NCBI GenBank assembly: GCA_027452205.1
Contig: DAIDGV010000010.1
Span: 1 to 64,000, forward strand
From: a candidate division FCPU426 bacterium
Lineage (GTDB): Bacteria > Oederibacteriota > Muellerivitia > Muellerivitales > Muellerivitaceae
Direction: 5' to 3'
Length of the DNA: 64,000 nt
The position numbers were made by a program, and so were the translations under genes. Position 1 is the first letter of the stretch; the number at the start of each line of letters is the position of its first letter. The notes below the pieces were generated by a model. That model was not told where the DNA came from, ran no database searches, and worked only from the letters and a program-made list of their open reading frames with translations. This document shows positions 20,705 through 39,965 of this stretch, in pieces.

Positions 20705-21647
20705 CGATGTCCATCTACCGGTCCTCCTTCGGGAGACGGTAGAGCTGTTGTCACCCCCACCCAACGGGGTCGTTGTGGATTGCACGGTTGGGATGGGCGG
20801 CCACTCTTCGGAATTGCTGAAGCGGATCCCGAACGGTCGTCTGATCGGTTTAGACCAAGACAAAGAAGCACTCCAACACGCTCGGCTGAAACTGGATGAC
20901 CCCCGGGTCACTTTAGTGCAAGCCAACTTCGCCAACCTACTCGATGTCTTGAGTGATCTTTCTGTGAGCGAGGTCGACTGCGTGTTGATGGATATTGGCG
21001 TATCCTCTTTACAACTTGATAGCCCCGAGCGGGGCTTTTCCTTCCAACAAGCCGGTCCTTTGGACATGCGCATGGACCTGTCGGCCCCTTTAACGGCGGC
21101 GGACGTGGTGAACACCTATCCCGAAAAAAAGCTCGCCGATGTCATTTACGAATATGGCGAAGAACGCAAAAGCCGCCAATTGGCCAATGCCATCGTGCGC
21201 CACCGCGCGCAAAAGCCCTTTGAAACCACTGAAGAATTAGCCCATTTAGCCAAGCAGGTGCTGGGCAGCCCCCGGCCCAAGCATGGCGAGTCCTTCAAAC
21301 ACCCGGCCACCCGCTTGTTCCAAGCCCTGCGCATTGAAGTGAACCAAGAACTGGAAGTGCTTCAAAAGGCCCTGAAAGATGTGCTGTCGGTCTTGAAGAC
21401 CGGCGGACGTTTGGGGGTCATCACCTTTCATTCTCTCGAAGACCGCATCGTCAAACAGTACTTCAAACAAGAGAGTGTCGACTGCCTCTGTCCGCCCCAT
21501 ATCCCGCAATGTATCTGCGGCCACAAGGCCCAAGTGGAGATCCTGACAAGGAAGCCGGTCGTGGCCACCGATGAAGAAATGCAAATGAACCCCCGGTCCC
21601 GCAGCGCGAAGCTCCGCGTGGTGCGGAAACTGGCGGTGACGGCGTGA
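20658..21647 (+). CDS. rsmH: 16S rRNA (cytosine(1402)-N(4))-methyltransferase RsmH
   Basis: A 329-residue SAM-dependent enzyme that N4-methylates C1402 of 16S rRNA. HLPVLLRETVELL begins the conserved region. VVDCTVGMGGHSSELL is the SAM loop, MDIGVSSLQLDSPERGFSF the family signature, and GGRLGVITFHSLEDRIVK the C-terminal motif; the zinc-like CLCPPHIPQCICGH is also present. The start is uncertain: ATG 20658 overlaps the STAS gene by 47 nt, while TTG 20694 (GAGG 12 nt upstream) gives a more usual N terminus. The 3' end, coding KLAVTA, forms a GTGA overlap with the next small ORF. Confidence 0.95.
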   Translation: MFWPVKTRPLTVLKADDVHLPVLLRETVELLSPPPNGVVVDCTVGMGGHSSELLKRIPNGRLIGLDQDKEALQHARLKLDDPRVTLVQANFANLLDVLSDLSVSEVDCVLMDIGVSSLQLDSPERGFSFQQAGPLDMRMDLSAPLTAADVVNTYPEKKLADVIYEYGEERKSRQLANAIVRHRAQKPFETTEELAHLAKQVLGSPRPKHGESFKHPATRLFQALRIEVNQELEVLQKALKDVLSVLKTGGRLGVITFHSLEDRIVKQYFKQESVDCLCPPHIPQCICGHKAQVEILTRKPVVATDEEMQMNPRSRSAKLRVVRKLAVTA

Positions 21648-22006
21648 GAAAAGGAAATGGGAACCACAGATACACACGGATGAACACGGATGTTTTCGAA
21701 ACTGCAAACAAACTGCAACAGCAGTTTTTGCCACAGATGCAGGGGATACAGGGGATGAATCAAAACCTTTTGGGTTACAGCGCAAACCCAAATCAAAGCC
21801 TGTTTTCACTAGAGACACAGGGGATAAAGCGAAACCTTTTGGGTTACGGCGTAAACCTGATGCAAAGGCTATTTTTGACACGGATACGGGGGATAGAGGA
21901 AAACCATAATTCTGAATTCTTAATTTTGAATTATGAATTGTTGTGTCCCCTGCATCCCCTGCATCTGTGGCTAAAGAAGGACTTAGCCTTGGGGGTGACC
22001 GCTTGA
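21644..22006 (+). CDS. Repeat-encoded coupling ORF between rsmH and ftsL (120 aa)
   Basis: An uninterrupted 120-codon frame that starts at a GTG inside the rsmH stop (GTGA) and ends in a TGA overlapping the TTG of ftsL (TTGA). The whole ORF consists of palindromic repeat DNA: aaccacagatacacacgg-type arms at 21652-21690, a gccacagatgcagggg left arm at 21729-21758, and the matching right arm cctgcatctgtggct at 21944-21976. The predicted peptide (FLPQMQGIQGM ... PLHPLHLWLKKDL) has no known domain. It is probably a by-product of the repeat, yet the exact overlaps suggest ribosomes traverse it to reach ftsL. Confidence 0.5.
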   Translation: MRKGNGNHRYTRMNTDVFETANKLQQQFLPQMQGIQGMNQNLLGYSANPNQSLFSLETQGIKRNLLGYGVNLMQRLFLTRIRGIEENHNSEFLILNYELLCPLHPLHLWLKKDLALGVTA

Positions 22007-22443
22007 ACAATTTCACTCCCAACGCTGTGAAGGAGCAATTCTTTGAGCGGGCGAACGACGCCATCGACGCTGGTCTTTTCTGGCGGGGCAATTTAGCCAA
22101 GGCCGTGCGCCAAAAGGATATCAAGGGCACCCTGTCGGGCATCCTGGTCATCAGCCTGGTGCTGTTCCTTTATGTGTGGCAGCACATGCAGGTGGTCAAG
22201 CTCAGCTATGAAGTGCAGGAACTGAAACAACAAAAACAACAACTGACCAACGAATACTATTACCTGAAATACAAGATGGGCGATGTGAACAGCATGGCCA
22301 GGGTGGAGACCATCGCGCGGGAACAGCTTCACATGGATACGCCCCGGACCGACCAAGTGGTGATCTTGGATGATAGCTACTCGGTGCTGCCGAAGTGGAT
22401 GACCTTCTGGAAAAAGACCGCCACGGTGGGGGTCAGTCGATGA
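22003..22443 (+). CDS. ftsL: Cell division protein FtsL-like
   Basis: A 146-residue bitopic protein at the ftsL position between rsmH and ftsI. A cytoplasmic N terminus of about 40 residues precedes one transmembrane helix (GTLSGILVISLVLFLYVWQHM, about residues 41-61), then a leucine-zipper-like coiled coil (KLSYEVQELKQQKQQLTNEYYYLKYKMGDV) and RVETIAREQLHM, the typical FtsL end. FtsL bridges FtsQ/FtsB with FtsW/FtsI at the septum. Start TTG at 22003 with GGGGGTGA upstream; it overlaps the preceding ORF stop by 4 nt. Stop overlaps the next small ORF (ATGA). Confidence 0.88.
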   Translation: MNNFTPNAVKEQFFERANDAIDAGLFWRGNLAKAVRQKDIKGTLSGILVISLVLFLYVWQHMQVVKLSYEVQELKQQKQQLTNEYYYLKYKMGDVNSMARVETIAREQLHMDTPRTDQVVILDDSYSVLPKWMTFWKKTATVGVSR

Positions 22444-22670
22444 AAACTAAAACCCACAACGGCAATGGAACAATGATGAATGCTGATGAACGCCGATACG
22501 GCAATACCGGAACCTCTTTGAGGTTAACGACGAAAGGCGATTTAGCTTTGATAAAGACTGATAAAGATGGATACGGCAAAACCAATTCCATCTTTGGTTT
22601 CATCAATGTTCATCAATGTCCATCATTGCTAAATAAGGCTTCGCTTCTATCTGTGGCGGTGACCGCATGA
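22440..22670 (+). CDS. Repeat-encoded coupling ORF after ftsL (76 aa)
   Basis: Starts with an ATG inside the ftsL stop (ATGA at 22440-22443) and ends in ATGA at 22667-22670, which starts the next small ORF. The DNA is an element of the TTTAGCTTTGATAAAGACTG family; its palindromic right arm is catcaatgttcatcaatgtc. The peptide LALIKTDKDGYGKTNSIFGF is read in the same frame as in the copies at 25200, 25300 and 33000. It ends in SVAVTA, the same residues that end rsmH and ftsW. No known domain. Confidence 0.5.
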   Translation: MKTKTHNGNGTMMNADERRYGNTGTSLRLTTKGDLALIKTDKDGYGKTNSIFGFINVHQCPSLLNKASLLSVAVTA

Positions 22671-22810
22671 AAAATCTGCACGGCCATTTTGCTTTGATAA
22701 AGACTGATAAAGATGGATGTGGCCAAACCAAAACGTTTTTTGGGTTCATCAATTTTTATCAACGTTCATCAAAGCTAAATGATGTTTTGTCTTTGGGGGT
22801 GTCTAAGTGA
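22667..22810 (+). CDS. Repeat-encoded coupling ORF before ftsI (47 aa), copy 1
   Basis: A 47-codon frame (MKNLHGHFALIKTDKDG ... LSLGVSK) that starts in the preceding stop (ATGA) and stops in the ftsI start (GTGA at 22807-22810). TTTGGGGGTG at its 3' end serves as the likely ribosome-binding site for ftsI. A close relative lies at 25280-25423 in front of murE; their first 14 codons are identical in DNA. Confidence 0.5.
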   Translation: MKNLHGHFALIKTDKDGCGQTKTFFGFINFYQRSSKLNDVLSLGVSK

Positions 22811-24996
22811 GCCTTCGCCATGCCAATCCCATTCAAAAGCGCCTGGCGGTGCTGGAGGCGATCGTCCTTTTCGCCTGTGTCTGTGTGGAAGGCCGCTTGG
22901 TCTATCTGCAAGTGATCAAACATTCCGAATTCCACCAGATGGCCTACCGTCAGCAATACACCCCGAAACAGACCGACGCCTCCCGCGGGATGATCGAGGA
23001 CCGGGGCGGTGCGCTGTTAGCCATGAACATCGGCCTTTTCAATGTCAGCGCTCATCCGGACCAGATCGCGGACAAGGCCCACGCGGCGGTCCTTTTGTCG
23101 CGGGCTTTGGGCATGTCCTATGGCGCGGTGGTGTCGAAGTTGATGGAGAACAAGCAGTTCGTTTGGCTGGCGAGGGAAGTGCCGTACAAGTATTCAGAGG
23201 CCGTTGAGGCCCTTAAAATCCAAGGCGTGGACGCCGTTCGTGAACAACACCGATTCTACCCCGACCACGAAATGGCGTCTCAAGCCTTGGGTTTCACGGG
23301 CATCGACAATCAAGGCCTCGGCGGGTTGGAGCGCTACTACAACGGGTTCTTAACGGGCAAGAACGGCCTGGTGCTGGCGGAACGGGACGCCCGGGGCCGC
23401 CTGGTGCTGGCGGACAACAAGTCGGTCAAGTCCAGCGAGGACGGACTTTCCGTCCGCACGACGATCGACGAGACCATCCAGCATATCGCCCAAGTGGAGC
23501 TGGAAAAGGCCTATACCCATTTCCGCTGCAAGGCCGCCTCGATCGTGGTGATGGACCCGGCCACCGGGGAAATTTTGGCCATGGCCAACTATCCCACCTA
23601 CGACCCGAACGATTACAAACATACGTCCCAAGAACTGCTGCGCAACCGGGTGGTCAATGACGAGTTCGAACCCGGTTCCACTTTCAAGCTCATCACCGCG
23701 GTGGGGGTCCTGGAAGAGGGTGTGGTGAACGAGGACGACAAGTTCTTCTGCGAGAACGGCGCTTTTCACACCGACTATGGCCGGGTGGTGCGCGACCACG
23801 AAAAGCTGGGGCTCATCAGTTTCCGCGAGGTCTTCGGCTATTCCAGCAACATCGGCATGGTCAAGGTGGGCATGAAGCTGGGCAAAGAGAACCTCTATAA
23901 ATACTGCAAGAAGTTCGGTTTCGGCGACCCGACGGGCATCGACCTGCCGGGCGAGGCGGACGGCAAGGTGCGCCCGCTGGACCGCTGGAGTGCCCTGTCC
24001 CTGACGACCATCCCTTACGGGTATGAGATCTCGGCGACCCCGATGCAGATCGTGGACGCCTACGCGGCCATTGCCAACGACGGTGTGATGATGAAGCCTT
24101 ATATCGTCAAAGACCTGGAGGACGCGAACGGTCATGTGGTGAAAAGTTTCTCGCCGCACAAGATCCGCCGGGTTTGCTCGGATAAGACCGCCAAGCGCAT
24201 GACCGAACTGCTCAAGTGGGTCGTGGCCCATGGCACGGGCACGATGGTGGCCCTGCCCAGCTACGACATCGCGGGCAAAACGGGCACGGCCTACAAATTC
24301 ATCAATGGCCGTTATTCGACGAACGAGTATCTATCTTCCTTCGTCGGGTTCGTCCCAGCGGACAAACCCAAAGTGGTCATCTATGTTTCGTTGGACGATC
24401 CCCGGGGCATCTATTGGGGCGGTTACACCGCGGGACCGGTCTTTAAAGAAGTGGCCAAGCGGGTGATGGCTTATGACTTGGTTCCCGGTTCCGCCCCCGA
24501 GGCTCGTAATCAAGTTGCCTCGGGGCAATCAAACCGCGGGACTCAGCTTGTGGCTTCGTCCCAGATGTTACGGGACGAGCGCAAAGTTCCGGACTTTGAC
24601 GGCCTGACCCCCGATCAATCCAAGTGGCTGGCCGAAGCCGGCGGGCTGACCTTGAAATTCACCGGTAAAGGCGAAAAGGTCATCGGTCAATCCGCGGCCC
24701 CTGGGGCCCCGGTGCTGGCCAGCGCGACCAATCCGGGGGTGGTTGTTTTGACCCTGGGTAAACCCGAACTTTCCCAAGCGGGCGGTTTGATGCCCGAACT
24801 ACGCGGTAAGACCAAGCGGCAAGCTTTGGCTCTCTTAGCCCCATTAGGTCTCAAAGTGAACTTCCATGGCGAGGGTGTTGTACAAGCCCAGTTCCCGCCA
24901 GCGGGCCGGTCGGTAGGACCGGAAGGTGTTTGCGAGCTCAACTGTAATGTGCCGGTGACCAGCGCCTCGGCGGCTGGACCCGGAGGAAAGTCGTGA
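22807..24996 (+). CDS. ftsI: Peptidoglycan transpeptidase FtsI (PBP3-like) with two PASTA domains
   Basis: A 729-residue class B penicillin-binding protein. An N-terminal membrane helix (AVLEAIVLFACVCVEGRLVYL, about residues 14-34) leads into the dimerisation domain. The transpeptidase has all active-site motifs: SxxK as GSTFK (about 290), SxN as SSN in GYSSNIGMVK (about 346), and KTGT in AGKTGTAYKF (about 491). Two PASTA domains (about 595-655 and 660-725) resemble Spo0B/SpoVD-type and PBP2x-type enzymes rather than E. coli PBP3. It cross-links septal peptidoglycan with FtsW. Start GTG 22807 (GGGGGTG upstream); both ends overlap neighbouring ORFs as GTGA. Confidence 0.95.
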   Translation: MSLRHANPIQKRLAVLEAIVLFACVCVEGRLVYLQVIKHSEFHQMAYRQQYTPKQTDASRGMIEDRGGALLAMNIGLFNVSAHPDQIADKAHAAVLLSRALGMSYGAVVSKLMENKQFVWLAREVPYKYSEAVEALKIQGVDAVREQHRFYPDHEMASQALGFTGIDNQGLGGLERYYNGFLTGKNGLVLAERDARGRLVLADNKSVKSSEDGLSVRTTIDETIQHIAQVELEKAYTHFRCKAASIVVMDPATGEILAMANYPTYDPNDYKHTSQELLRNRVVNDEFEPGSTFKLITAVGVLEEGVVNEDDKFFCENGAFHTDYGRVVRDHEKLGLISFREVFGYSSNIGMVKVGMKLGKENLYKYCKKFGFGDPTGIDLPGEADGKVRPLDRWSALSLTTIPYGYEISATPMQIVDAYAAIANDGVMMKPYIVKDLEDANGHVVKSFSPHKIRRVCSDKTAKRMTELLKWVVAHGTGTMVALPSYDIAGKTGTAYKFINGRYSTNEYLSSFVGFVPADKPKVVIYVSLDDPRGIYWGGYTAGPVFKEVAKRVMAYDLVPGSAPEARNQVASGQSNRGTQLVASSQMLRDERKVPDFDGLTPDQSKWLAEAGGLTLKFTGKGEKVIGQSAAPGAPVLASATNPGVVVLTLGKPELSQAGGLMPELRGKTKRQALALLAPLGLKVNFHGEGVVQAQFPPAGRSVGPEGVCELNCNVPVTSASAAGPGGKS

Positions 24997-25283
24997 AAAT
25001 GAATAACAGCAACTTCAATGGAACAGGGATGAACGCCGATGCCCCGCTAGGCGGGACAATACCGATCTCCTTGGAAAATTTAAACAAAGAGGATCGGCAT
25101 GAACGCCGATACGGCAAAACCGGAACCTCTTTGAGGTTAACGGCGAAAGGCAATTTAGCTTTGATAAAGACTGATGAACATGGATACGGCAAAACTAATT
25201 CCATCTTTGGTTTCATCAATGTTCATCAATGTCCATCATTGCTAAATAAGGCTTCGCTTCTATCTGTGGCGGTGACCGCATGA
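24993..25283 (+). CDS. Repeat-encoded coupling ORF after ftsI (96 aa)
   Basis: The frame begins at a GTG within the ftsI stop (GTGA, 24993-24996) and ends in ATGA (25280-25283). Its 3' half is the second copy of the repeat found behind ftsL (LALIKTDEHGYGKTNSIFGF ... SVAVTA). The 5' half holds further GATGAACGCCGATACGGC units. No known domain; read-through rather than peptide function is the likelier role. Confidence 0.5.
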   Translation: MKMNNSNFNGTGMNADAPLGGTIPISLENLNKEDRHERRYGKTGTSLRLTAKGNLALIKTDEHGYGKTNSIFGFINVHQCPSLLNKASLLSVAVTA

Positions 25284-25423
25284 AAAATCTGCACGGCCAT
25301 TTTGCTTTGATAAAGACTGATGAACATGGATACGGCAAAACCAGTTCCATCTTTGGTTTCATCAATGTTCATCAATGTCCATCATTGCTCAAAGAGGTTT
25401 TGGCTTTGGGGGTGGCGTTATGA
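25280..25423 (+). CDS. Repeat-encoded coupling ORF before murE (47 aa), copy 2
   Basis: MKNLHGHFALIKTDEHGYGK and so on, 47 residues, the same length as the ORF in front of ftsI. It starts in ATGA at 25280 and ends in the ATGA that contains the murE start (25420-25423). TTTGGGGGTGG close to its end supplies the murE ribosome-binding site. Confidence 0.5.
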   Translation: MKNLHGHFALIKTDEHGYGKTSSIFGFINVHQCPSLLKEVLALGVAL

Positions 25424-26904
25424 AGTTCCGCGCTCTTCTTAAAAATCTAAAAGGTGTCCGGGTGATCGGCAAGAACGACCCTGAAATAACGGGCATCTCC
25501 GAAAGTTCCAAGGAAGTCCAAAGAGGGGACCTGTTCGTTTGCATCCCCGGCGCGAAGGTCGATGGCCGCGCTTATGCCATGGAAGCGGTGGAAAAGGGCG
25601 CCCGGGCGGTGATGGTGCAAGGCGAAGTGCTGCGCTCCGTCGATGTGCCCCAAGTGGTGGTCAAGGACGTCCGGGAATCGCTGGCGCTCCTGGCCCACGC
25701 TTTCTACGGCAATCCTTCCAAAAAGGTGAAGGTCATCGGGGTCACCGGCACCAAGGGCAAGACCACGACCACTTATTTGATCCGCTCGATCCTGGAAAGG
25801 GCCGGCCAAAAGGCGGGCCTCATCGGGACGATCGCTTACCACATCGGCAAGAAAACCTACGAAGCCAACAACACCACGCCCTCGTCCCTGACCATCGTGA
25901 AGCTGCTGGAGGAGATGCGCAAGGAAGGCTGCCAATGGGCGGTCATGGAAGTCTCTTCCCACGCTTTGGAGATGCGCCGGGTGCTGGGGATCGATTTCCA
26001 GGGAGCGGTCTTCACCAACCTGGGCCGGGACCATTTGGACTATCACAAGAATTTTAATAACTACTTCAAGGCCAAACGCCGCCTCTTCACCGAATTCAAG
26101 GACCTCAAAGCTAGGGCCATCAACGCCGATGATGTTTATGGCCTGAAGCTGTTGAAAGAACTCAAAGCCAAAGCGGTGGGATACAGCATCAAAGCTGACT
26201 GTGCCTACAAAGCCACCGATGTCACGCACAAGGCGGGACAATTGAAGTTCAGCGTTCAAGGCAACGCCTTTGAGGTGCCCCTGACCGGTCTTTTCAATGT
26301 GTACAACGCGCTGGCGGCCATCGCGGTGTTGAAGGAATTGGGCCTGTCTTGGAGCGAGATCCAGGACGGGTTGAAACACGCCCCGGCGGTGCCGGGCCGT
26401 TTTGAGGAAGTGAAAGCGGGACAGAACTTTACCATTCTTGTCGATTACGCCCATACGGCGGACGCCTTGAAGCAAGCCTTGATCGCGGCCCGGGATATTT
26501 TGGGCAAAAAGACCAACTACCGCCTCATTTCGGTCTTTGGTTGCGGCGGCGACCGGGACCGCACCAAGCGGCCCCTGATGGGCAAGGTCTCCTCGCAGTT
26601 GGCGGACCTGACCATCATCACCTCCGACAATCCGCGCACCGAGAACCCCACCTCGATCCTGGAGGACATCCAACGGGGCATTCCCCGGCCACTCCTTTCC
26701 GGCGAACACCGCCGGGTCTGGGTGGAAGGCGACCGCACCCAAGCCATCCGTATGGCCTTGTCCAACGCCAAGCCGGGCGACCTGGTCTTGATCGCGGGCA
26801 AGGGCCATGAGACCTACCAGATCATCGGCGAGACGAAGCACCATTTCGACGACCGGGAAGTGGCGATGAAAATCGCCAAAGAACTGAAGAAAAAACATGT
26901 CTAA
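25420..26904 (+). CDS. murE: UDP-MurNAc-tripeptide synthetase MurE
   Basis: The 494-residue cytoplasmic Mur ligase adds the third stem-peptide residue. The ATP loop GVTGTKGKTTTTYL is at about residues 107-120, and the carbamylated-Lys region near HLDYHKNFNNYFKAKRRLF at about 205. The C-terminal substrate motif is DNPR (TSDNPRTENP, about 402-411), which in this family selects meso-diaminopimelate. That implies DAP-type peptidoglycan. The start is ATG 25420, overlapping the preceding ORF. The stop overlaps the next small ORF by 8 nt (ATGTCTAA). Confidence 0.96.
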   Translation: MKFRALLKNLKGVRVIGKNDPEITGISESSKEVQRGDLFVCIPGAKVDGRAYAMEAVEKGARAVMVQGEVLRSVDVPQVVVKDVRESLALLAHAFYGNPSKKVKVIGVTGTKGKTTTTYLIRSILERAGQKAGLIGTIAYHIGKKTYEANNTTPSSLTIVKLLEEMRKEGCQWAVMEVSSHALEMRRVLGIDFQGAVFTNLGRDHLDYHKNFNNYFKAKRRLFTEFKDLKARAINADDVYGLKLLKELKAKAVGYSIKADCAYKATDVTHKAGQLKFSVQGNAFEVPLTGLFNVYNALAAIAVLKELGLSWSEIQDGLKHAPAVPGRFEEVKAGQNFTILVDYAHTADALKQALIAARDILGKKTNYRLISVFGCGGDRDRTKRPLMGKVSSQLADLTIITSDNPRTENPTSILEDIQRGIPRPLLSGEHRRVWVEGDRTQAIRMALSNAKPGDLVLIAGKGHETYQIIGETKHHFDDREVAMKIAKELKKKHV

Positions 26905-27028
26905 CCACAGAGTACACGGAGTACACAGAGTGAACCTGAATTTTGAATTAAGAATTAAGAATGATGAATTGTTGAACTCTGTGAACTCTGTGGCCCCGAA
27001 GGGGCCTGTGGTGAAAAAGGTTTTGTGA
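26897..27028 (+). CDS. Repeat-encoded coupling ORF between murE and murF (43 aa)
   Basis: Begins at an ATG inside the end of murE (ATGTCTAA) and ends in a TGA that overlaps the murF start (TGATG at 27026-27030). It spans an element of the CACAGAGTACACGGAGTA family: left arm 26903-26936, right arm ctctgtgaactctgtggcc 26977-26995, and a small GGCCCCGAAGGGGCC hairpin at 26992-27006. Peptide MSNHRVHGVHRVNLNFELRI and so on; no known domain. Confidence 0.5.
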   Translation: MSNHRVHGVHRVNLNFELRIKNDELLNSVNSVAPKGPVVKKVL

Positions 27029-28368
27029 TGTTGCCTTGGAGCTTGGAAGAAGTAGCGGCCTTGACCAACGGCAAGTTGGCCGGGCCCCGGGACGAAAAAG
27101 TGACGGGGGTCGTGCATGACACCCGGGATGTGAAGAAGGGCGATCTGTTCGTGGCCATTGTGGGGGAGCGGTTGGACGGCCATAAGTTCGTGAAGCAAGC
27201 GGCGGCGAAGGGCGCGAAGGCGGCGGTGGTTTCTAGGTGGGTCCCGGGCGTGAAGCTGCCCCAGATCCAGGTGGAAGACACCACGAAGGCCTTGGGGCAG
27301 TTGGGCAAAGCCCAGAGGCTGCAGTGGGGCGGGTTGGTGGTGGCGGTAACGGGGAGCGTTGGGAAGACCACGGTGAAGGATATGACCGCTTTCCTCCTGT
27401 CCGGGTTGTTCACGACCTTGAAGACGAAGGGCAACTTGAACAATCAGTACGGTTTGCCGCTGACCTTGCTGGGACTGACCCGGGACCACGAAGTGGCGGT
27501 GGTGGAACTGGGCATCAATCACCCGGGAGAGATGGAAGAGCTCTCGGAGATAGCCAGACCCGATGTGAGCGTAGTGACGGCCATCGGTGAGGCGCATTTA
27601 GGTTTCTTTAAAAGCCGGGCCCATTTGGCCCAGGAAAAAATGAAGATCGCGTCCGGATCGCGGGACGGCGGGGTTCGCATCCTGAACGGGGATGACCCCT
27701 TCTTAAAGGCGAAAGGCGAAAACATCATGACCTTCGGATTGAAAAGAGGACTGGTCAGGGCCAAGGGCTTACGGGCGACCGATGAGGGCACCCGCTTTAC
27801 GGTGGAATATAAGGGCAAGAGCGCGCCGACGACGCTGCACATGCCGGGCAGCCACAACGTGGGCAATGCCATGGCGGCGGTGGCGGCGGGATTGACGCTG
27901 GGCATTCCCTTGAATGTCCTGGCGCGGCGCTTGGCGGTTTTCCGCCCCCAAGCGGCGATGCGCATGCAGTTGAAGAAGATCAAAGGGGTCTTGTTCTTGA
28001 ATGACGCTTACAACGCCTCGCCGACCTCCATGGAGGCGGCTTTGGAAACCTTCAAGACCCTGCCGAGCCGGGGCCGCAAGGCCGCGGTGCTGGGCGACAT
28101 GCTGGAGATGGGTTCTTTCGCGGCGGAAGCGCACAAGCGCATGGTGAAGCGGGCCCTGACGATGCCTTTGGAGGACCTGATCCTGGTGGGGAAGCAAATG
28201 CGCGCGGCGGGCGAGAGCCTGCTGGGTAAAAGTTCCCTGCGGGCGCGGTTCTTCGACAACGCCGAGGAAGCGGGGGCCTACCTGAAGGGCTGGCTGCGGC
28301 CCCAGGACGCGGTGCTGTTGAAAGCCTCGCGGGGCATCCATCTGGAAAAAGTGTTGGAGGCCCTTTGA
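27028..28368 (+). CDS. murF: UDP-MurNAc-tripeptide-D-Ala-D-Ala ligase MurF
   Basis: The 446-residue Mur ligase that adds D-Ala-D-Ala. The N-terminal MurF domain is visible (WSLEEVAALTNGKLAGP). The ATP loop VAVTGSVGKTTVKDM is at about residues 106-120, NLNNQYGLPLTLL and VVELGINHPGEM follow at about 134-165, and DAYNASPTSMEAAL near 327 is a MurF-specific block. ATG 27028 (TGATG) is taken; GTG 27025 would give a GTGA overlap. AAAAAGG lies upstream within the repeat. It overlaps the following small ORF by 1 nt. Confidence 0.96.
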   Translation: MLPWSLEEVAALTNGKLAGPRDEKVTGVVHDTRDVKKGDLFVAIVGERLDGHKFVKQAAAKGAKAAVVSRWVPGVKLPQIQVEDTTKALGQLGKAQRLQWGGLVVAVTGSVGKTTVKDMTAFLLSGLFTTLKTKGNLNNQYGLPLTLLGLTRDHEVAVVELGINHPGEMEELSEIARPDVSVVTAIGEAHLGFFKSRAHLAQEKMKIASGSRDGGVRILNGDDPFLKAKGENIMTFGLKRGLVRAKGLRATDEGTRFTVEYKGKSAPTTLHMPGSHNVGNAMAAVAAGLTLGIPLNVLARRLAVFRPQAAMRMQLKKIKGVLFLNDAYNASPTSMEAALETFKTLPSRGRKAAVLGDMLEMGSFAAEAHKRMVKRALTMPLEDLILVGKQMRAAGESLLGKSSLRARFFDNAEEAGAYLKGWLRPQDAVLLKASRGIHLEKVLEAL

Positions 28369-28544
28369 TGCTCTCCCTCAAGGACTTCTTGGACAAGCTG
28401 GCGGGCCCGGACCATCCCTTCGTGAAGGGCGCTCCGGTGGAGGATGTGAACGAAAAGAAGGATGGGGAACAAAAGGTGGCGGCGCCGACAGGGGCAGTGA
28501 CCGAGGTGAAGTTGAACAAGTATCTGCGAATGAACGCGAACTGA
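28368..28544 (+). CDS. Small hypothetical protein between murF and mraY (58 aa)
   Basis: The frame starts at TGATG on the murF stop and runs 58 codons: MLSLKDFLDKLAGPDHPFVK followed by a Lys/Glu/Val-rich segment ending KLNKYLRMNAN. Unlike the other small ORFs of the cluster it is not made of repeat DNA, and its codon use resembles the neighbours. I do not recognise a family. A repeat element begins directly after its stop. Confidence 0.55.
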   Translation: MLSLKDFLDKLAGPDHPFVKGAPVEDVNEKKDGEQKVAAPTGAVTEVKLNKYLRMNAN

Positions 28545-28552
28545 CGACGAAA

Positions 28553-28655
28553 GGAAATTTAGCTTTGATGAAATCTGATGAAGACTGATATGGAAAACCA
28601 TTTCAGTTTCGGTGTCATCAATATTTATCAATGTTTATCAGAGCTAAACAGAGAT
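28553..28655. repeat. Palindromic repeat, TTTAGCTTTGATGAA family
   Basis: Left arm tttagctttgatgaaatctg, right arm tcaatgtttatcagagctaa. This copy has in-frame stops in the frame used by the coupling ORFs (GATGAAGACTGA), so it is not translated through. It sits in the 167-nt gap before mraY. Confidence 0.8.
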
Positions 28656-28711
28656 TGGGTTTCTGATTGTTTGAAGTGAAAAGATTCAAGACTTTTAAAA
28701 CGGGGTAACAA

Positions 28712-29800
<1,089 letters not shown>

Positions 29801-29815
29801 GGAAAAAAGGAAAGG

Positions 29816-29921
29816 AAATTAAGGATTATGAATTAAGAATTTTGAATTGATGTTGTTTTCATTCGTGGAACGAATGAAAACTTCCGAAATTCATAATTGC
29901 TAATTCTGAATTCTTAATTGG
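29816..29921. repeat. Palindromic repeat, AATTCTGAATTCTTAATT family
   Basis: Left arm attatgaattaagaattttg, right arm aattctgaattcttaatt, with an inner hairpin TTTTCATTCGT/ACGAATGAAAA. Stops occur in all three frames. The right arm ends directly at the GGAGCGGAG ribosome-binding site of murD. Confidence 0.75.
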
Positions 29922-29932
29922 AGCGGAGCGAC

Positions 29933-31312: not shown

Positions 31313-31799
31313 AAGCGAAAGGCGATTTAGCTTTGATGAAAATGGATCAATGCTGATAAGGCAATGAAAGTCTTATCAATGAGCATCAGAATTCATCATA
31401 GCTAGAAAATGTTTCAAAGCTGTTGATGAAAATGATTTGAAAGGAAGGGTACTGATTCGAAGTTTTTCCGAATCAGTATCGCCAAGCAGAAAGAATGGAT
31501 CAAATTTCGAGGATTTATTTTGATCCATTCGTAACAAGTTTGAAGTTCTGAAGAACTTCAAACAAGAAAGGGGCAACCTTCATTTTTACGCTCGGATTCT
31601 GAGAACAACACCTACTACGCTTTTCTACACCACCTACGCCGCACTCTCGGAATCCGAACGGAACAATGAAGGGAATGAAAACCAAAAGAATTTTTTGCCA
31701 CGGATGCAGGGGATACAGGGGATGGCAAAAACAAAAACGTCTTTTGGCTTTTTAAGATTTATCTCCTGAATCCCCTGAATCTGTGGCTAAAGAGGATTT
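31313..31799 (+). other. Non-coding gap murD-ftsW: two repeats and a cluster of hairpins
   Basis: No gene is visible in 487 nt. A TTTAGCTTTGATGAA-family repeat occupies about 31321-31404. Successive simple hairpins follow: tactgattcg/cgaatcagta (31450-31478), atggatcaaa/tttgatccat (31495-31528), tttgaagttct/agaacttcaaa (31539-31562), and cggattctgag/ctctcggaatccg (about 31594-31658). A gccacggatgcagggg-family repeat lies at about 31697-31793, whose right end (ctgtggctaaagagg) supplies the ftsW ribosome-binding site. Confidence 0.7.
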
Positions 31800-32960
31800 A
31801 TGTCGTTCAAAACTAAAAACCTAGGATCACCCGATTTTCTACTGTTCTTCCTCACCGTCGTCTTGATGGTGTCGGGGCTCATCATGATCTATAGCGCCTC
31901 GGCCATATTGGCCCATGACCGCTATGGCAGTTCCTATTACTTCTTCCTGCGCCAACTGCTGTGGATCACGGTGGGTTGCGCGGGGATGTGGGTGGCTTAC
32001 CGGATCGACCTGGAGGCCCTGCGGGCCCTGGCCATTCCGGGTCTATTCCTGGGAGTTCTTCTCATGGCGGCGGTCTGCGTGCCGGGTATCGGACGCACGG
32101 TGGGCGGCGCCCAGCGCTGGTTCCGTCTGGGGCCCTTTTCTTTCCAACCCTCGGAGATCATGAAGATCGTATTGGTGTTCTATTTGGCGGACTCGCTGGA
32201 TCGCCGCCGCAAGATGCTCGACAACTGGCAGTCCCTCATCCCTTACGGTGTCATCACGCTTGTTTGGGCGGCTCTGCTTCAAAAGCAGCATGACTTGGGG
32301 ACCCTGGTCCTTTTAGGACTCGTGACCTTGCTCCTCCTGATCCTCGCGGGGATGCCCTATATCTTTGGTCTCGTTCCCCTGGCGGTGTCGATCCCGGCCA
32401 TCATTTACCTGGTGGAATCGGCCAGCTACCGCATGAAGCGTATCTCGGCCTTCCTCAATCCCTGGGATGATCCGCAAGGCGCGGGCTTCCAACTGATCCA
32501 AAGTCTCATCGCGGTGGGGAATGGCGGTATCACCGGGGTCGGGTTATCGAACAGCACGCAAAAACTTTTTTACTTACCCGCTCCGCATACGGACTTCATT
32601 TTTGCCGTTATCTCGGAAGAGTTGGGTTTGTGGGGCGCGGGCGGGCTGGTCTTCCTATTCGGGGTCTTCGTGCTTCGCGGTTTCAAAGTGGCCGGGGCGG
32701 TCAGCCAGCGCGAGGGCGGAACTTTCCAAGCCCTGCTGGCCTCGGGCATCACGGCGCTCATCGGTTTCCAAGCCATCATGAACCTGGGGGTCGTGACCGG
32801 CCTTCTGCCCACGAAGGGTATCCCTTTGCCGCTCATCTCTTACGGCGGATCGTCCATGGTCTTCACCTTGTTTTCCATCGGCCTTCTCTTCAATATTTCC
32901 TCGGGCGTGAAACTGGTCTCGGCCCCCTCGCGGGTGCCAGGGTCGGCGGTGACAGCGTGA
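31800..32960 (+). CDS. ftsW: Septal peptidoglycan glycosyltransferase FtsW (SEDS)
   Basis: The 386-residue SEDS polymerase with about ten membrane helices. The family signatures are VGGAQRWFRLGPFSFQPSE (about residues 101-119, ending in the conserved Pro-Ser-Glu) and the C-terminal PLISYGGSSMVFTLFSIGLL (about 343-362); a catalytic-loop Asp is expected after GDD-like segments near 225-240. It polymerises lipid II at the septum with FtsI. AAAGAGG precedes the ATG. The 3' end encodes SAVTA and forms a GTGA overlap with the next small ORF. Confidence 0.96.
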   Translation: MSFKTKNLGSPDFLLFFLTVVLMVSGLIMIYSASAILAHDRYGSSYYFFLRQLLWITVGCAGMWVAYRIDLEALRALAIPGLFLGVLLMAAVCVPGIGRTVGGAQRWFRLGPFSFQPSEIMKIVLVFYLADSLDRRRKMLDNWQSLIPYGVITLVWAALLQKQHDLGTLVLLGLVTLLLLILAGMPYIFGLVPLAVSIPAIIYLVESASYRMKRISAFLNPWDDPQGAGFQLIQSLIAVGNGGITGVGLSNSTQKLFYLPAPHTDFIFAVISEELGLWGAGGLVFLFGVFVLRGFKVAGAVSQREGGTFQALLASGITALIGFQAIMNLGVVTGLLPTKGIPLPLISYGGSSMVFTLFSIGLLFNISSGVKLVSAPSRVPGSAVTA

Positions 32961-33277
32961 AAGGCAACGACATGAACGGACATTTAGCTTTGATGAAGTC
33001 TGATAAAGACCGATACGGCCAAACTATTTTGGCTTTTGGCCTCATCAATATTGATCAATGTTTATCAGAGCTAAATTGCTTTTTAGCTTTTGAAGCAAAG
33101 TCGAACGACGATTTAGCTTTGATGAAATCTGATGAATGCCGATACGACGAAAACCAAATGCAAAGGCTGTTTTTGCCACAGATGCAGGGGATACAGGGGA
33201 TAAACAAACATCTTTTGGCTTTTGACTTTCGCCATCCCCTTCATCCCCTGAATCTGTGGCTAAAGAGGGGTTTATGA
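32957..33277 (+). CDS. Repeat-encoded coupling ORF between ftsW and murG (106 aa)
   Basis: Begins at a GTG in the ftsW stop (GTGA) and ends in the ATGA that carries the murG start. It spans a TTTAGCTTTGATGAA-family element (about 32976-33075), a half copy (33111-33150) and a gccacagatgcagggg element (33175-33266). The frames used (LALMKSDKDRYGQT; FLPQMQGIQGINK; PLHPLNLWLKRGL) are the same as in the ORFs around ftsL and ftsI. No known domain. Confidence 0.5.
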   Translation: MKGNDMNGHLALMKSDKDRYGQTILAFGLINIDQCLSELNCFLAFEAKSNDDLALMKSDECRYDENQMQRLFLPQMQGIQGINKHLLAFDFRHPLHPLNLWLKRGL

Positions 33278-34359: not shown

Positions 34360-34370
34360 AAGGAGGAGAA

Positions 34371-35162: not shown

Positions 35163-35164
35163 TC

Positions 35165-36562
35165 ATGGCTATAAAACCAATGGCACAACCTTTTGGCGCG
35201 GTGAAGCGGGTGCATTTTATCGGCATCGGCGGCGCGGGCATGAGCGGTATTGCCGCGGTTCTCTTGAGCCTGCATTACCAAGTGACGGGGTCGGACTTGA
35301 AAGAAACTGAAGTGACCGAGCGCCTCACCCAAATGGGCGCCAAGATCACCTTTGCCCATAAGGCCAATAACGTGGTGGGGGCGGACGTGGTGGTCTATTC
35401 GGCCGCGGTGCCCATGGATAACCCTGAAATTGTCGAAGCCAACAAACGCTCGATCCCTGTTATCGCCCGCACGGAGATGCTGGCGGAGCTGATGCGCCTC
35501 AAGTATGGCATTGCCATCTCCGGCACCCATGGCAAGACCACGACAACTTCCATGACCGGTTTGGTCATGACCGAAGGGAAGCTCGACCCGACGCTGGTCA
35601 TCGGCGGTCAGGTGGATGTGTTCAAGTCGAACGCCAAATTGGGCAAGGGTTCTTATCTCGTGGCCGAGGCCTGCGAGGCTTTTGGCGAGTTCTTCCTGCT
35701 CTCGCCCATGATCTCCATTATCACCAACATCGATGACGACCATTTGGACTATTACGGCTCGGTCGAAAAGGTACGGGAAGCTTTCATCACCTTCGCGAAC
35801 AAAGTGCCTTTCTATGGCTGTGTCATCCTCAATTCGGACGACAAACAGAACAAGATGATCCTTCCGGCCATCAAGCGCCGGGTGGTGACCTATGGTTTGG
35901 ATAAAGAGGCCCAGGTCTCGGCCCGCAATGTGAAGTTGGAAAAGGCGGGGTCCACCTTCGACCTTTATTTTCAAGGCAAGAAACAAGGCCGGGTGAAATT
36001 ACATGTGCCGGGTACCTTCAATATCCAAAATGCTTTAGCGGCTATCGCGGTGGGCTTGGAACTGAAAGTGCCTTTCAAAGCCATTGCCGCCGGTTTGGTG
36101 CGATTCCATGGGGCCCAGCGCCGGTTCGAGTTCAAAGGCACCTATAAAGGCGCGACCGTTATCGACGACTATGCCCATCACCCGACCGCCGTTCACGAAA
36201 CCCTCAAGGCAGCCAAGAATTTCGCGGGCACCAAGAAACTGGTGGTGGTCTTCCAACCCCATCTCTTTTCCCGCACTCAATTATTGCGCGACAAGTTCGG
36301 AAAAGCCTTTGGCGACGCGGACGAGGTGTTGGTCACCGCGGTCTATCCTTCGCGCGAAAAGCCTATCCCGGGCGTGACGGGGAAGACCATCGTGGAAGCG
36401 ATGCGGGAGAACGGCTACAAGCATGCCCAATCCTTCGAGGACAAGAATGCCCTGATGGAATATCTCAAGAACAGCCTGAGCGACAAACATGTGCTGCTCA
36501 CCATGGGCGCCGGGGACGTGTGGAAGATCGGGAACGACCTCGTGCAGAAGCACAAGGGCTGA
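35165..36562 (+). CDS. murC: UDP-MurNAc-L-alanine ligase MurC
   Basis: The 465-residue Mur ligase adds L-Ala to UDP-MurNAc. N-terminal HFIGIGGAGMSGIAAVLL (residues 14-31) binds the nucleotide sugar, the ATP loop is ISGTHGKTTTTSM (about 118-130), followed by EACEAFGEFFLL and NIDDDHLDYYG (about 170-200). DDYAHHPTAVHETL (about 336-349) marks the C-terminal domain. GGGGAG precedes ATG 35165. murB begins 1 nt after the stop. Confidence 0.97.
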   Translation: MAIKPMAQPFGAVKRVHFIGIGGAGMSGIAAVLLSLHYQVTGSDLKETEVTERLTQMGAKITFAHKANNVVGADVVVYSAAVPMDNPEIVEANKRSIPVIARTEMLAELMRLKYGIAISGTHGKTTTTSMTGLVMTEGKLDPTLVIGGQVDVFKSNAKLGKGSYLVAEACEAFGEFFLLSPMISIITNIDDDHLDYYGSVEKVREAFITFANKVPFYGCVILNSDDKQNKMILPAIKRRVVTYGLDKEAQVSARNVKLEKAGSTFDLYFQGKKQGRVKLHVPGTFNIQNALAAIAVGLELKVPFKAIAAGLVRFHGAQRRFEFKGTYKGATVIDDYAHHPTAVHETLKAAKNFAGTKKLVVVFQPHLFSRTQLLRDKFGKAFGDADEVLVTAVYPSREKPIPGVTGKTIVEAMRENGYKHAQSFEDKNALMEYLKNSLSDKHVLLTMGAGDVWKIGNDLVQKHKG

Positions 36563-36563
36563 T

Positions 36564-37541
36564 GTGACGAGCGCGACGCTAGAAAGGCTGAAAGTGGACT
36601 TTAGGGAACTGACACATTTGATCCAGGGCAAGGTGCTGTTGAACCATGCCGTGGCGCCCTACACGACCTACCACTTGGGCGGGCCCGCCGCCGCTTTCGT
36701 CGAACCCCATGATGTGGAGGACCTTTCCCAACTGCTCCATACGCTGAACTGCGGCCAGATACCCCACCTGATGCTGGGCGGCGGCAGTAACGTGCTTTTC
36801 GCCGATGAGGGCTATCAAGGTGTGGTCATCCGTCTGGGCCGCGGTTTTTCCGGCATCCATATCGAAGGCGACAAGGTGCGGGTGAAGGCCGGCACCAAGC
36901 TGGTGACGGTCATGAACAAGGCCCGGGAAGCCGGGTTGGGCGGGGTGGAGTTCTTCGCCGGTATCCCCGGAACCATCGGCGGGGCGGTCGTCGGTAACGC
37001 GGGCGCCAAGAAGGCCTGGATCGGCCCGACCGTTGAGGAATTGACCATCGTGACCCCTCGGGGCGAAGTGAAAAAGCTGACCAAGTCGGAATACCAATAT
37101 AGCTACCGCTACTCGTCCTTGAAACTTTCGGGGAATGTGCTGGTGGAAGTGGTGCTGAAGCTGAAGAAAGAACCCAAAGACGTGATCGAGCAAAAGGTGA
37201 AGGACTATTTCAAGACCCGTCGGGGCAAACAGCCCCGGGTGGAGAAGAACGCGGGTAGTGTTTTCAAGAACCCGGAAGGCAACTTCGCCGGTCGTTTGAC
37301 CGAGTCGCTGGGCCTGAAGGGATTCAAGGTCGGAGGAGCCGAGGTCAGTAAGATCCACGCCAACTTCATCGTCAACACCGGCCGGGCAACCTCTCATGAT
37401 GTGGCGGCCGTGATGCGGGCCATTCAACAACGCGTCATGGCTGAGTACAACATCCAACTAGAACCGGAGATCCTGCCCCTGGGCGATTGGAACTGGGACG
37501 AGATCAAGGACATTTGGTGGAACTTTGAAAAGAACAGTTAG
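36564..37541 (+). CDS. murB: UDP-N-acetylenolpyruvoylglucosamine reductase MurB
   Basis: The 325-residue flavoprotein makes UDP-MurNAc. FAD-binding TTYHLGGPAAAFVEP (about residues 34-48), MLGGGSNVLFADEGYQG (about 70-86), FFAGIPGTIGGAVVGNAGA (about 130-148), and the catalytic Ser in NAGSVFKNPEG (about 229-239). The final NIQLEPEILPLG is typical. The start is GTG at 36564: the frame is open further upstream inside murC but homology begins here. A single nucleotide separates it from murC. Confidence 0.95.
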   Translation: MTSATLERLKVDFRELTHLIQGKVLLNHAVAPYTTYHLGGPAAAFVEPHDVEDLSQLLHTLNCGQIPHLMLGGGSNVLFADEGYQGVVIRLGRGFSGIHIEGDKVRVKAGTKLVTVMNKAREAGLGGVEFFAGIPGTIGGAVVGNAGAKKAWIGPTVEELTIVTPRGEVKKLTKSEYQYSYRYSSLKLSGNVLVEVVLKLKKEPKDVIEQKVKDYFKTRRGKQPRVEKNAGSVFKNPEGNFAGRLTESLGLKGFKVGGAEVSKIHANFIVNTGRATSHDVAAVMRAIQQRVMAEYNIQLEPEILPLGDWNWDEIKDIWWNFEKNS

Positions 37542-37648
37542 AAGTGCGGAGTTGGGAGTTAGGAGTTGAAACTTCTAACTTCTCACTCGAGCGTAGCGAG
37601 GAACTAACTACTAACTTTATTGAACTGTTGACCGAAAAGAGAGTTTGA
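37541..37648. repeat. Palindromic repeat, GGAGTTGGGAGTTAGGAGTT family, with open frame
   Basis: Left arm ggagttgggagttaggagtt, right arms acttctaacttctcac and actaactactaact, with an inner CTCGAGCGTAGCGAG hairpin. A frame from GTG 37544 to TGA 37646-37648 is open through the element, but it has an 18-nt gap to ddl and no stop/start overlap, so it is weaker than the other coupling ORFs. Confidence 0.65.
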
Positions 37649-37666
37649 ACTGAAAGGCAGAGTGTT

Positions 37667-38605
37667 ATGGCGCTAAAGGTGGGCGTGATGATGGGGGGCT
37701 GGAGCCCTGAAAAGAAAATTTCCCTGATGTCGGGGAAGAACGTGGTGGAGGGCCTTCGCCAAGCGGGCCTGAAGGCCGAGCCTTTCCTTTTGACCACCGC
37801 GGACAAGAAAGAAAAACACCTTCAACAGCGTTTGAAGAAAGCCAAGTTCGACGTGGTTTTCATCGCCCTGCACGGCGGTTTTGGCGAGGACGGAAGCCTG
37901 CAAGCGCTCTTGGACGAGTGGCATATCCCTTATACCGGCTCGGGCGCTTTGGCCTGCGGCCTGGCCATGCATAAAGGTTGTTCCAAGCTGGTTTTTGAGG
38001 CCCAGAACATTCCCAGCGCGCCTTGGAAGGCCATCCACAAAAGCGTGAAACCCCAAGACTGGACCAAAGACCTGAAGATCAAGGTGCCTCTGGTGGTGAA
38101 GCCCGCGGATGTGGGTTCGGCTATCGGCGTGACCATCGTGAAGAAGGCTTCGGGCATCAAGCCCGCCATTCGCACCGCATTCAAGAACAGCTCTTGGGCG
38201 ATCGTTGAAAAATTCATTCCGGGTACCGAAGTGACCGCGACCGTCTTGGGCGGAACGGCCCTGCCGGTCATCGAGATCGTGCCGAAGAACGACTTTTACG
38301 ACTTCGACGCCAAATATACTCCCGGCCATTCGGACCATATCGTTCCGGCCCGCATTAGCCCGGCCCAGACCCAGAAGGTAAAGGCTTACGCCCTGAAGGC
38401 GGGGCAGGCGATGGGCTGCGAGGATTACTACCGGGTGGATTTCATCGTACCGAAGAAGGGTGAGCCGCAAATTTTGGAAGTGAACACCGCGCCGGGCATG
38501 ACCAGCACCAGTTTGGTGCCGGACGCCGCCAAGGCGGTGGGTATCTCTTTCCCGCAGTTGTTGAAGACATTGGTGGGAATGGCTTTGAAAAAGGATAAGA
38601 AGTAA
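37667..38605 (+). CDS. ddl: D-alanine-D-alanine ligase
   Basis: The 312-residue ATP-grasp ligase joins two D-Ala for the MurF substrate. VGVMMGGWSPEKKISLMSG (residues 4-22) is the N-terminal signature, HGGFGEDGSLQALL (about 66-79) binds the first D-Ala, VVKPADVGSAIGV (about 143-155) is the ATP-grasp Lys region, and YRVDFIV...ILEVNTAPGMTSTSLVP (about 256-284) holds the Mg ligands and catalytic loop. GAAAGGCAG precedes the ATG. Confidence 0.95.
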   Translation: MALKVGVMMGGWSPEKKISLMSGKNVVEGLRQAGLKAEPFLLTTADKKEKHLQQRLKKAKFDVVFIALHGGFGEDGSLQALLDEWHIPYTGSGALACGLAMHKGCSKLVFEAQNIPSAPWKAIHKSVKPQDWTKDLKIKVPLVVKPADVGSAIGVTIVKKASGIKPAIRTAFKNSSWAIVEKFIPGTEVTATVLGGTALPVIEIVPKNDFYDFDAKYTPGHSDHIVPARISPAQTQKVKAYALKAGQAMGCEDYYRVDFIVPKKGEPQILEVNTAPGMTSTSLVPDAAKAVGISFPQLLKTLVGMALKKDKK

Positions 38606-38609
38606 CAGA

Positions 38610-38735
38610 ATGAACCACAGAGTACACGGAGTACACAGAGTGAGACTTAAGACTTTGATCCATCAAAAAGAAAGAGATTTACTCTGTGAACTCTGTGGCC
38701 CTGAAGGGGCCTGTGGTGAAAGGATTTTGAACTAA
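38610..38735 (+). CDS. Repeat-encoded coupling ORF between ddl and ftsQ (41 aa)
   Basis: An ATG 4 nt after the ddl stop opens a 41-codon frame that ends in TAATG, overlapping the ftsQ start by 1 nt. It is an element of the CACAGAGTACACGGAGTA family, with the same GAAGGGGCCTGTGGTGAAA right end as the murE/murF copy, but it is read in the frame MNHRVHGVHRVRLKT. No known domain. Confidence 0.45.
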   Translation: MNHRVHGVHRVRLKTLIHQKERDLLCELCGPEGACGERILN

Positions 38736-39842: not shown

Positions 39843-39965
39843 ATGGCAAACGTTAAACAAAAATCCGCAAGACGGGGAAAACCGATTAAAGTAGTGACGA
39901 TCTGCTTTTCCCCCTGCCGATGCTTCACCGCATCGAAACATAAAAAACACAAGATGGGGAGGTGA
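39843..39965 (+). CDS. Small basic Cys-containing ORF between ftsQ and ftsA (40 aa)
   Basis: ATG 39843, 4 nt after the ftsQ stop, opens 40 codons: MANVKQKSARRGKPIKVVTI, then CFSPCRCF and a Lys/His-rich tail. Its stop lies in the GGGGAGGTGAGG that forms the ftsA ribosome-binding site, so its translation would reach into the ftsA initiation region. No repeat DNA is involved and no family is recognised. It may be a leader peptide or spurious. Confidence 0.4.
   Translation: MANVKQKSARRGKPIKVVTICFSPCRCFTASKHKKHKMGR

Follow-up and report, generated by a model that had tools for sequence, protein, structure and literature searches.

Small reading frames between the dcw genes

The stretch of DNA analyzed here, called the window, covers bases 1-64000 of contig 10 in the 2.89-Mb genome, present as 28 contigs, of a candidate division FCPU426 bacterium. 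Among six close matches pointing to its nearest named relatives, five are metagenome-assembled genomes of candidate division FCPU426 and one is labelled Proteobacteria. The window holds a division and cell wall (dcw) cluster whose genes lie in one direction, rsmH, ftsL, ftsI, murE, murF, mraY, murD, ftsW and murG, followed by an unknown gene, murC, murB, ddl, ftsQ, ftsA and ftsZ; we presume these identities from recognition of the proteins. The gaps between these genes contain palindromic repeats of several sequence families (T, Z and G), hereafter called elements, and some are crossed from end to end by small open reading frames (mini-ORFs), which are the subject of this study.

A chain was defined as a series of open reading frames (ORFs) leading from the upstream stop to the downstream start. 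A link was called strict when the distance from the first stop base to the next start was -1 to +2 nt, i.e., at junctions of the NTGA and TAATG/TGATG types; wider (-10 to +3) and widest (-10 to +8) links were scored separately. Four of the 15 junctions examined in the window are strict chains with real mini-ORFs: rsmH/ftsL (120 codons), ftsL/ftsI (76 and 47), ftsI/murE (96 and 47) and ftsW/murG (106). When the gap interiors were submitted to 2000 dinucleotide shuffles with the junction ends retained, 41-54 shuffles were also chains at each of the four. The initial annotation had described linkers open from stop to start at six junctions. All the stop/start junctions that it listed are present at the positions given, and its open linkers hold strictly at these four; murE/murF is a chain only with the -10 to +3 link and ddl/ftsQ only with the -10 to +8 link, and shuffles are commonly chains there too (410/2000 and 749/2000, respectively). 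The element-free ftsQ/ftsA junction is also a chain at the widest shuffled setting (-10 to +8), and murC/murB, whose gap is 1 nt, passes the strict setting solely by virtue of an ORF of one codon. Before mraY, murD and ftsW, where the repeat copies had been annotated as closed, no chain was found at any of the three settings, and the T copies before mraY and ftsW carry stops. One- or two-base deletions were not useful as a null, since alternative chains survive in many cases. The mini-ORFs of the window are as follows.

21644..22006 (+): mini-ORF from rsmH to ftsL, 120 codons; GTGA overlap at start, TTGA at end; strict chain, 48/2000 shuffles
22440..22670 (+): first mini-ORF of the ftsL/ftsI linker, 76 codons
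22667..22810 (+): second mini-ORF of the ftsL/ftsI linker, 47 codons; ends in the GTGA of ftsI
24993..25283 (+): first mini-ORF of the ftsI/murE linker, 96 codons
25280..25423 (+): second mini-ORF of the ftsI/murE linker, 47 codons; ends in the ATGA of murE
26897..27028 (+): mini-ORF of the murE/murF linker, 43 codons; 8-nt overlap with murE, wider link only
32957..33277 (+): mini-ORF from ftsW to murG, 106 codons; strict chain
38610..38735 (+): mini-ORF of the ddl/ftsQ linker, 41 codons; 4-nt gap after ddl, -10 to +8 link only

A Shine-Dalgarno (SD)-like sequence (GGGGGT, GGCGGTGA or GGAGG) lies close upstream of six of these eight starts; the murE/murF and ddl/ftsQ mini-ORFs have none. Two further small ORFs were seen in the cluster. 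The one at 28367-28543 (MLSLKDFLDKL...) starts in a TGATG at the murF stop, has a similar counterpart between murF and mraY, judged by eye, in two of the relatives compared below (G002 and G007), and is probably a real small operon gene. The other, of 40 codons (39843-39965), lies between ftsQ and ftsA, 4 nt after ftsQ, and has no strong inverted repeat.

The T family is built of 10-nt units (TTTAGCTTTGATGAA) that are readable in the mini-ORF frame. The elements, the duplicated linker block and a recurring junction box are positioned as follows.

22541..22633 (+): element of the T family (TTTAGCTTTGATAAAG...), mini-ORF frame free of stops
25154..25246 (+): element of the T family, mini-ORF frame free of stops
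32983..33075 (+): element of the T family in ftsW/murG, mini-ORF frame free of stops; CGA in place of the TGA of most other copies
28558..28648 (+): element of the T family before mraY, uncoupled control; a stop in that frame
31326..31406 (+): element of the T family between murD and ftsW, uncoupled control; stops in that frame
21727..21974 (+): Z-family arms (GCCACAGATGCAGGGGAT ... ATCCCCTGCATCTGTGGC) with intervening DNA; the flanks of GxxExxY locus L177 match this gap
33172..33263 (+): element of the Z family in ftsW/murG; hairpin of -50.5 kcal/mol predicted over 33160-33272
26905..26993 (+): G-family element (CCACAGAGTACACGGAG...) in murE/murF; predicted hairpin of -42.9 kcal/mol over 26905-27027
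38615..38698 (+): G-family element in ddl/ftsQ; predicted hairpin of -49.8 kcal/mol over 38606-38734
22486..22785 (+): duplicated linker block of 300 nt, ftsL/ftsI copy; 91% identical to 25099-25398
25099..25398 (+): duplicated linker block, second copy, in ftsI/murE
21632..21647 (+): junction box GGNGGTGACNGCNTGA, stop of rsmH
21991..22006 (+): junction box, start of ftsL
22655..22670 (+): junction box, ftsL/ftsI linker, where its two mini-ORFs meet
25268..25283 (+): junction box, ftsI/murE linker, where its two mini-ORFs meet
32945..32960 (+): junction box, stop of ftsW

Three of the five stretches folded are predicted to form strong hairpins, at about -43 to -50 kcal/mol (z -5.3 to -7.2). 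No known RNA family was found in the window at the Rfam gathering score. Because the ftsL/ftsI and ftsI/murE linkers have the 300-nt block in common, they are not independent. The whole genome has five copies of the 16-nt box, all of them at dcw linker junctions: two form the two ends of the rsmH/ftsL linker, two lie in the duplicated block and one is at the end of ftsW. By chance, 0.12 matches would be expected in the window with one mismatch permitted. This distribution suggests duplication at insertion or copying between junctions.

At the third unit of the T family, a stop is present in none of the six mini-ORF copies, which have GGA or CGA there, versus 16 of the 18 other copies (Fisher 0.0002; 0.0075 when the four duplicated copies are counted as one). 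The number of independent mini-ORF copies is about three, because four of the six sit in the duplicated block. The 18 other copies include opposite-strand arms, two of them from elements within mini-ORF linkers; C10:69525, which is not an element, was dropped. That TGA is replaced by two different codons, GGA and CGA, argues for separate changes.

The same junctions in related genomes

A search with FtsI among 39 genomes, the window's own included, identified seven other members of its family and one further member of its order. Eight dcw clusters were compared, those of the window, G001, G002 and G004-G008; G003 is a fragment and was omitted. The clusters of G001, G005, G006 and G007 are incomplete. 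G002, G006 and G007 share a genus, as do G001 and G005. Every gap of at least 60 nt was counted (n=49), with ends based on homology. For the four strict junctions taken together, the expected value comes from a null in which the gap interior is swapped for pieces of 138 real element gaps located outside dcw, the ends being retained.

Direct overlaps are frequent at the ftsI/murE junction (six of the eight clusters) and are also found at rsmH/ftsL (three, G007 through an alternative start), at murE/murF, ddl/ftsQ and murG/murC (two each) and at ftsW/murG, murF/mraY and murC/murB (one each). Five of the six junctions reported as open in the window thus overlap directly in at least one genome, the exception being ftsL/ftsI. 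Most simply, the elements of the window would have gone into overlaps that other genomes still have, the overlap being, as we infer, the older state.

The relatives hold different elements at the same junctions, with repeat units of the CACGAAGAC, TCTTCGCG, TCTTGGCG and CACAGATGC kinds, and these again form open chains. Strict ftsL/ftsI chains are present in G001, G002, G005, G006 and G007, the inverted repeat being weak in G002 and G007 (scores 14 and 10), and G005 has strict chains at ftsI/murE and ftsW/murG as well. Taking the four strict junctions together, all 11 gaps of at least 60 nt are strict chains where 1.1 would be expected (rsmH/ftsL 1/1, ftsL/ftsI 6/6 against 0.6 expected, ftsI/murE 2/2, ftsW/murG 2/2). 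Because the four junctions were singled out by the window, the fair part of this count is the seven gaps found in relatives, all of them strict. G002, G006 and G007 may share one insertion; the elements of G001 and G005 differ. TGAGC-like and NTGAA-like repeats flank the elements in ftsL/ftsI of G002 and G007 and in ftsI/murE of G005, by eye, and are suggestive of target-site duplications, a clean count of which is prevented by the nesting of the insertions.

Junctions that never overlap directly (mraY/murD, murD/ftsW, murB/ddl, ftsQ/ftsA and ftsA/ftsZ) have no strict chain in 21 gaps (0.3 expected), and two of 21 with the wider link. By comparison, eight of 22 gaps are strict (2.1 expected) at junctions that overlap directly in some genome, ftsL/ftsI left aside, murG/murC contributing two of three. 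The two classes differ (Fisher 0.0036, 8/22 vs 0/21), and the value becomes 0.00007 with ftsL/ftsI counted as coupled. Almost no further insertions could be drawn from other families of the phylum because their ftsI/murE junctions are tight: of 22 loci, 21 have a gap no longer than 14 nt, and there is a single long gap of 180 nt (L016).

The mini-ORF peptides were followed in the ftsL/ftsI gaps of G007 and G002 (65 and 71 codons). Nonsynonymous divergence (dN) is 0.28 and synonymous divergence (dS) 0.57, compared with a dN of 0.05-0.06 and a dS of 0.50-0.96 for the neighbours ftsL, ftsI and murE, and another frame of the mini-ORF gives a similar dN/dS ratio. The mini-ORF thus keeps its openness as its peptide drifts. 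This dN and the different sequences found at the same junction across genera speak against a conserved peptide.

Elements outside the cluster and their relation to GxxExxY genes

The scan of gaps inside and outside dcw covered some 0.76 Mb of the genome that holds the window, plus samples of G001, G002, G004, G005 and G007, considering gaps of 60-700 nt between same-direction genes and calling element gaps those with a strong inverted repeat inside. Because most own-genome stretches were chosen for holding elements, the scan is a sample of elements rather than of the genome. Starts throughout this work were set by homology or by a simple home-made gene caller, which misplaces some; homology gives ten strict chains for G000, G001 and G005, and nine of them are counted by the automatic scan. 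Inside dcw, eight of 29 element gaps are strict chains (1.4 expected), and outside, three of 182 (2.8 expected), so that the excess of overlaps at both ends that the initial annotation proposed to look for genome-wide is found in the cluster and chance levels elsewhere. One of the three outside chains precedes a G005 gene that we take to be ispE. Gaps without a strong repeat are strict in 4 of 20 cases inside (2.8 expected) and 22 of 433 outside (15.8 expected). The figure of 3/182 in these sampled stretches does not support the annotation's other proposal, a mobile element adapted to insert at stop/start overlaps: the elements appear not to seek such overlaps, and the locus probably filters or tunes them.

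Genes of the PF13366/TIGR04256 family (GxxExxY, PDDEXK_3), a name confirmed for two proteins, sit inside longer elements of a similar kind. Thirty GxxExxY loci were examined, short fragments and rows without loci being omitted. Flanking inverted arms score above six shuffles each at 28 of them, the misses being L185 and L196, and an arm score of at least 19 is reached at 27/30 loci versus 0/94 similarly sized control genes of the genome that holds the window. At 24 of these 30 loci, the locus's own partner arm ranks first among those of all 30. The T, Z and G families each bracket one of the genome's six PF13366 matches (C14:14448-14894, C24:367430-367929 and C15:32566-33028), and the murE/murF gap with its G-family element matches the flanks of locus L176. 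For all eight window gaps given, the best of the 30 loci is a GxxExxY locus of the same genome, with one tie. In relatives, the best match is in the own genome for only two of 12 gaps, plus one tie, the locus set being incomplete for those genomes. Because similar arms flank GxxExxY genes and match the window gaps, the dcw repeats are taken to be gene-less relatives of GxxExxY elements.

In plasmid records, arms lie around four of eight GxxExxY-like matches (Gemmatirosa, Bacteroides, Bernardetia and Sphingomonas) with raw scores of 20-33; the other four score 9-15. The Sphingomonas record (L212, NZ_CP155749.1 482297-483859) has a GxxExxY gene with periodic inverted arms between fabD and fabG, the gene ending 2 nt before fabG, a housekeeping operon entered by a gene-bearing element. 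Loci of PF05635, of the 23S rRNA intervening-sequence type (L217-L236), have arms scoring at least 19 in 10 of 20 cases, in a different dialect (AGTTAGG, GAATTAAG, GTCACAGGT) that resembles, by eye, the element before murD. RAYT was rejected as the mobiliser: there are three PF01797 matches, one of them long (Y1_Tnp, C16:144-503), and the repeats beside it are different by eye. Among the matches listed, no paper links GxxExxY with palindromic repeats or reports repeats in dcw junctions, which does not establish their absence from print.

Two other repeats were seen in the window. Before ftsW, at about 31575-31670, CGGATTCTGA...CTCGGAATCCGA arms are present that also occur, by eye, in G002, G004, G005 and G007. 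A 1721-aa ORF (3928-9093) has long internal repeats at 4216-7377, in three to four copies of 300 nt.

Proposed ribosome relays, alternative explanations and known systems

The explanation that we find best, and rather likely, is that elements in coupled dcw junctions are kept as open relays for ribosomes. Small palindromic mobile elements would have entered the dcw operon of this FCPU426 family and hit pairs joined by overlaps (rsmH-ftsL, ftsI-murE and ftsW-murG, probably ftsL-ftsI and, more loosely, murE-murF). An insertion may have survived only with an overlap at both ends and a readable interior, or it was perhaps tuned later, its stop codons being lost. A mini-ORF would now start from what had been the start codon and SD sequence of the downstream gene; ribosomes finishing the upstream gene would reinitiate on this mini-ORF, traverse the element and then begin anew on the gene that follows. 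The selected trait would be unbroken passage (termination-reinitiation, hairpin melting or RNA shielding) and not the peptide. The positions, the direct overlaps in relatives, the recurrence with different elements, the lack of the pattern elsewhere and the missing stops are observed; mini-ORF translation, reinitiation and selection as the cause are what we infer. On the simplest account, the linkers stay readable since rsmH-ftsL-ftsI-murE and ftsW-murG need ribosome handover. The view of the initial annotation that elements persist in the operon only when they keep ribosomes moving is supported by the recurrence with other elements, the 0/21 at never-overlapping junctions and the missing T stops. 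It is limited here to certain pairs because other once-overlapping junctions (murF/mraY and murC/murB) hold closed gaps.

Several observations weigh against such relays. The ftsL/ftsI junction never overlaps directly in the eight genomes, in two of which its gap is 4 and 6 nt, and the class comparison is not significant (Fisher 0.35) if it is counted as never-overlapping. Despite a direct overlap in some relative, no gap is strict at murF/mraY (0/4), murC/murB (0/3) or ddl/ftsQ (0/1), and murE/murF is strict in one of six, though in five of six with the wider link. Two 41-nt ftsW/murG gaps (G002 and G007) are not chains. The duplicated linkers and the shared genera (G002/G006/G007 and G001/G005) lower independence. 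Of the two remaining folded stretches, one is weaker (z -3.4) and the other, part of rsmH/ftsL, does not go beyond shuffles (z -0.5). Finally, in a small sample of four non-dcw junctions where a relative overlaps directly and the gap exceeds 100 nt, none is strict and one passes the wider link; the script used there misplaced the murE start of G005 and so missed one known chain. Given these four cases, selection for coupling would have to be special to dcw.

The mini-ORFs might instead serve transcription, by keeping ribosomes on the RNA so that neither Rho nor hairpins halt transcription of the downstream essential genes. Rho halts transcription of untranslated RNA, three of the five stretches are predicted to be strongly folded, and long gaps at never-overlapping junctions are not open. 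However, the mraY/murD and murD/ftsW junctions of the same operon tolerate gaps of 112-487 nt that lack a strict chain, unless promoters are present there. We regard this as unlikely but as the alternative to be taken most seriously, and on present evidence reinitiation and protection from a transcription stop are indistinguishable. Somewhat less likely again is copying of a cassette, in which recombination carried duplicates of an inserted mini-ORF, already open and equipped with SD box and overlap, to further junctions, a single lucky event then accounting for the pattern in the window without repeated selection. The main reason to consider it is the distribution of the GGNGGTGACNGCNTGA box, found five times in 2.89 Mb and solely at these junctions, together with the 300-nt block common to ftsL/ftsI and ftsI/murE. 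It leaves unexplained the same architecture with other elements in G001, G005 and G006, and the two codons (GGA and CGA) that replace TGA in T copies.

The other explanations fare worse. Preferential insertion at NTGA overlaps of an element that carries a coupling-ready ORF, as for MIRUs, would account for the architecture and for overlaps at both ends, but it is largely refuted by the count outside dcw in the sampled stretches; moreover, many Z copies are directed into the end of a gene on the other strand and the majority of T copies at other sites have a stop in the mini-ORF frame, and we consider it very improbable. Chance is about as improbable: repeats with a 9-nt period and few stops, brought into overlaps through target duplication, could often be open, the Z arms are stop-free in two frames, and the probability of a chain at a single junction is 2.6-24% with real element segments. 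Against this stand the 11/11 observed for 1.1 expected and the 7/7 in relatives not used to form the idea, for which the product of the seven probabilities is about 3e-7 before shared ancestry is allowed for. Functional small proteins of the division machinery are just as hard to credit; the frames are open and SD-like sequences precede six of the eight starts, but the peptides differ between genera at the same junction and the dN of the mini-ORF is about five times that of its neighbours.

Combining the relay explanation with the GxxExxY findings gives a broader picture that we put forward tentatively. The elements would belong to an undescribed mobile class in which a GxxExxY gene lies between element-specific palindromic arms with a 9-11-nt period, with one gene-bearing copy per sequence family; gene-less copies would spread in the manner of REPIN/RAYT and, in coupled essential junctions, persist only as open relay ORFs. 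If the relay explanation is true, these insertions are a natural experiment on translational coupling, showing which pairs need a moving-ribosome link (rsmH-ftsL-ftsI-murE and ftsW-murG) and which do not. An orphan family, GxxExxY, would also be linked with dispersed palindromic repeats, a link that is directly testable.

Overlaps of the ATGA/TGATG type and termination-reinitiation are described as translational coupling (PMC6728339, PMC10666635, PMC12548453). Here, the coupling would differ in passing via one or two successive repeat ORFs of 25-120 codons that are not conserved. Rickettsia palindromic elements are mobile repeats inside coding sequence that keep the frame open. The same is reported for the enterobacterial RU/ERIC elements, palindromic mobile repeats within coding sequence whose frame stays open (PMC2759123). 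Both kinds extend or enter one protein, whereas the elements of the window give separate mini-ORFs between genes. In REPIN/RAYT systems, paired inverted arms spread through one genome and each flavour is tied to one distinctive gene (PMC3116915). Paired inverted repeats are dispersed in one genome here too, and the best match of every window gap tested, eight in all, is a GxxExxY locus of its own genome, with the one tie. The linked gene is different: it belongs to a PD-(D/E)XK family (PF13366) and lies between the arms, and no association with a REP-associated tyrosine transposase was found.

The closest precedent is the MIRU (mycobacterial interspersed repetitive unit). A proposal of 1997 reportedly named DTGA as the MIRU target site, and to our knowledge MIRUs, unlike the elements here, are not palindromic. 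As described in a 2025 review, MIRUs insert at start codons with an ORF coupled to its neighbour at -4 nt, which is thought to make the insertion tolerable (PMC12548453). The likeness lies in a small ORF that overlaps the flanking genes at start and stop, here for the named dcw junctions only. In contrast to MIRUs, the copies in the sampled stretches are not placed genome-wide at start codons or NTGA sites (3/182 outside dcw, 2.8 expected), and they form several palindromic families in an FCPU426 host, with a pattern that is limited to certain dcw junctions and returns with different elements in other genera. The points of difference from MIRUs are the elements, the host, the restriction to certain junctions and the recurrence with different elements.

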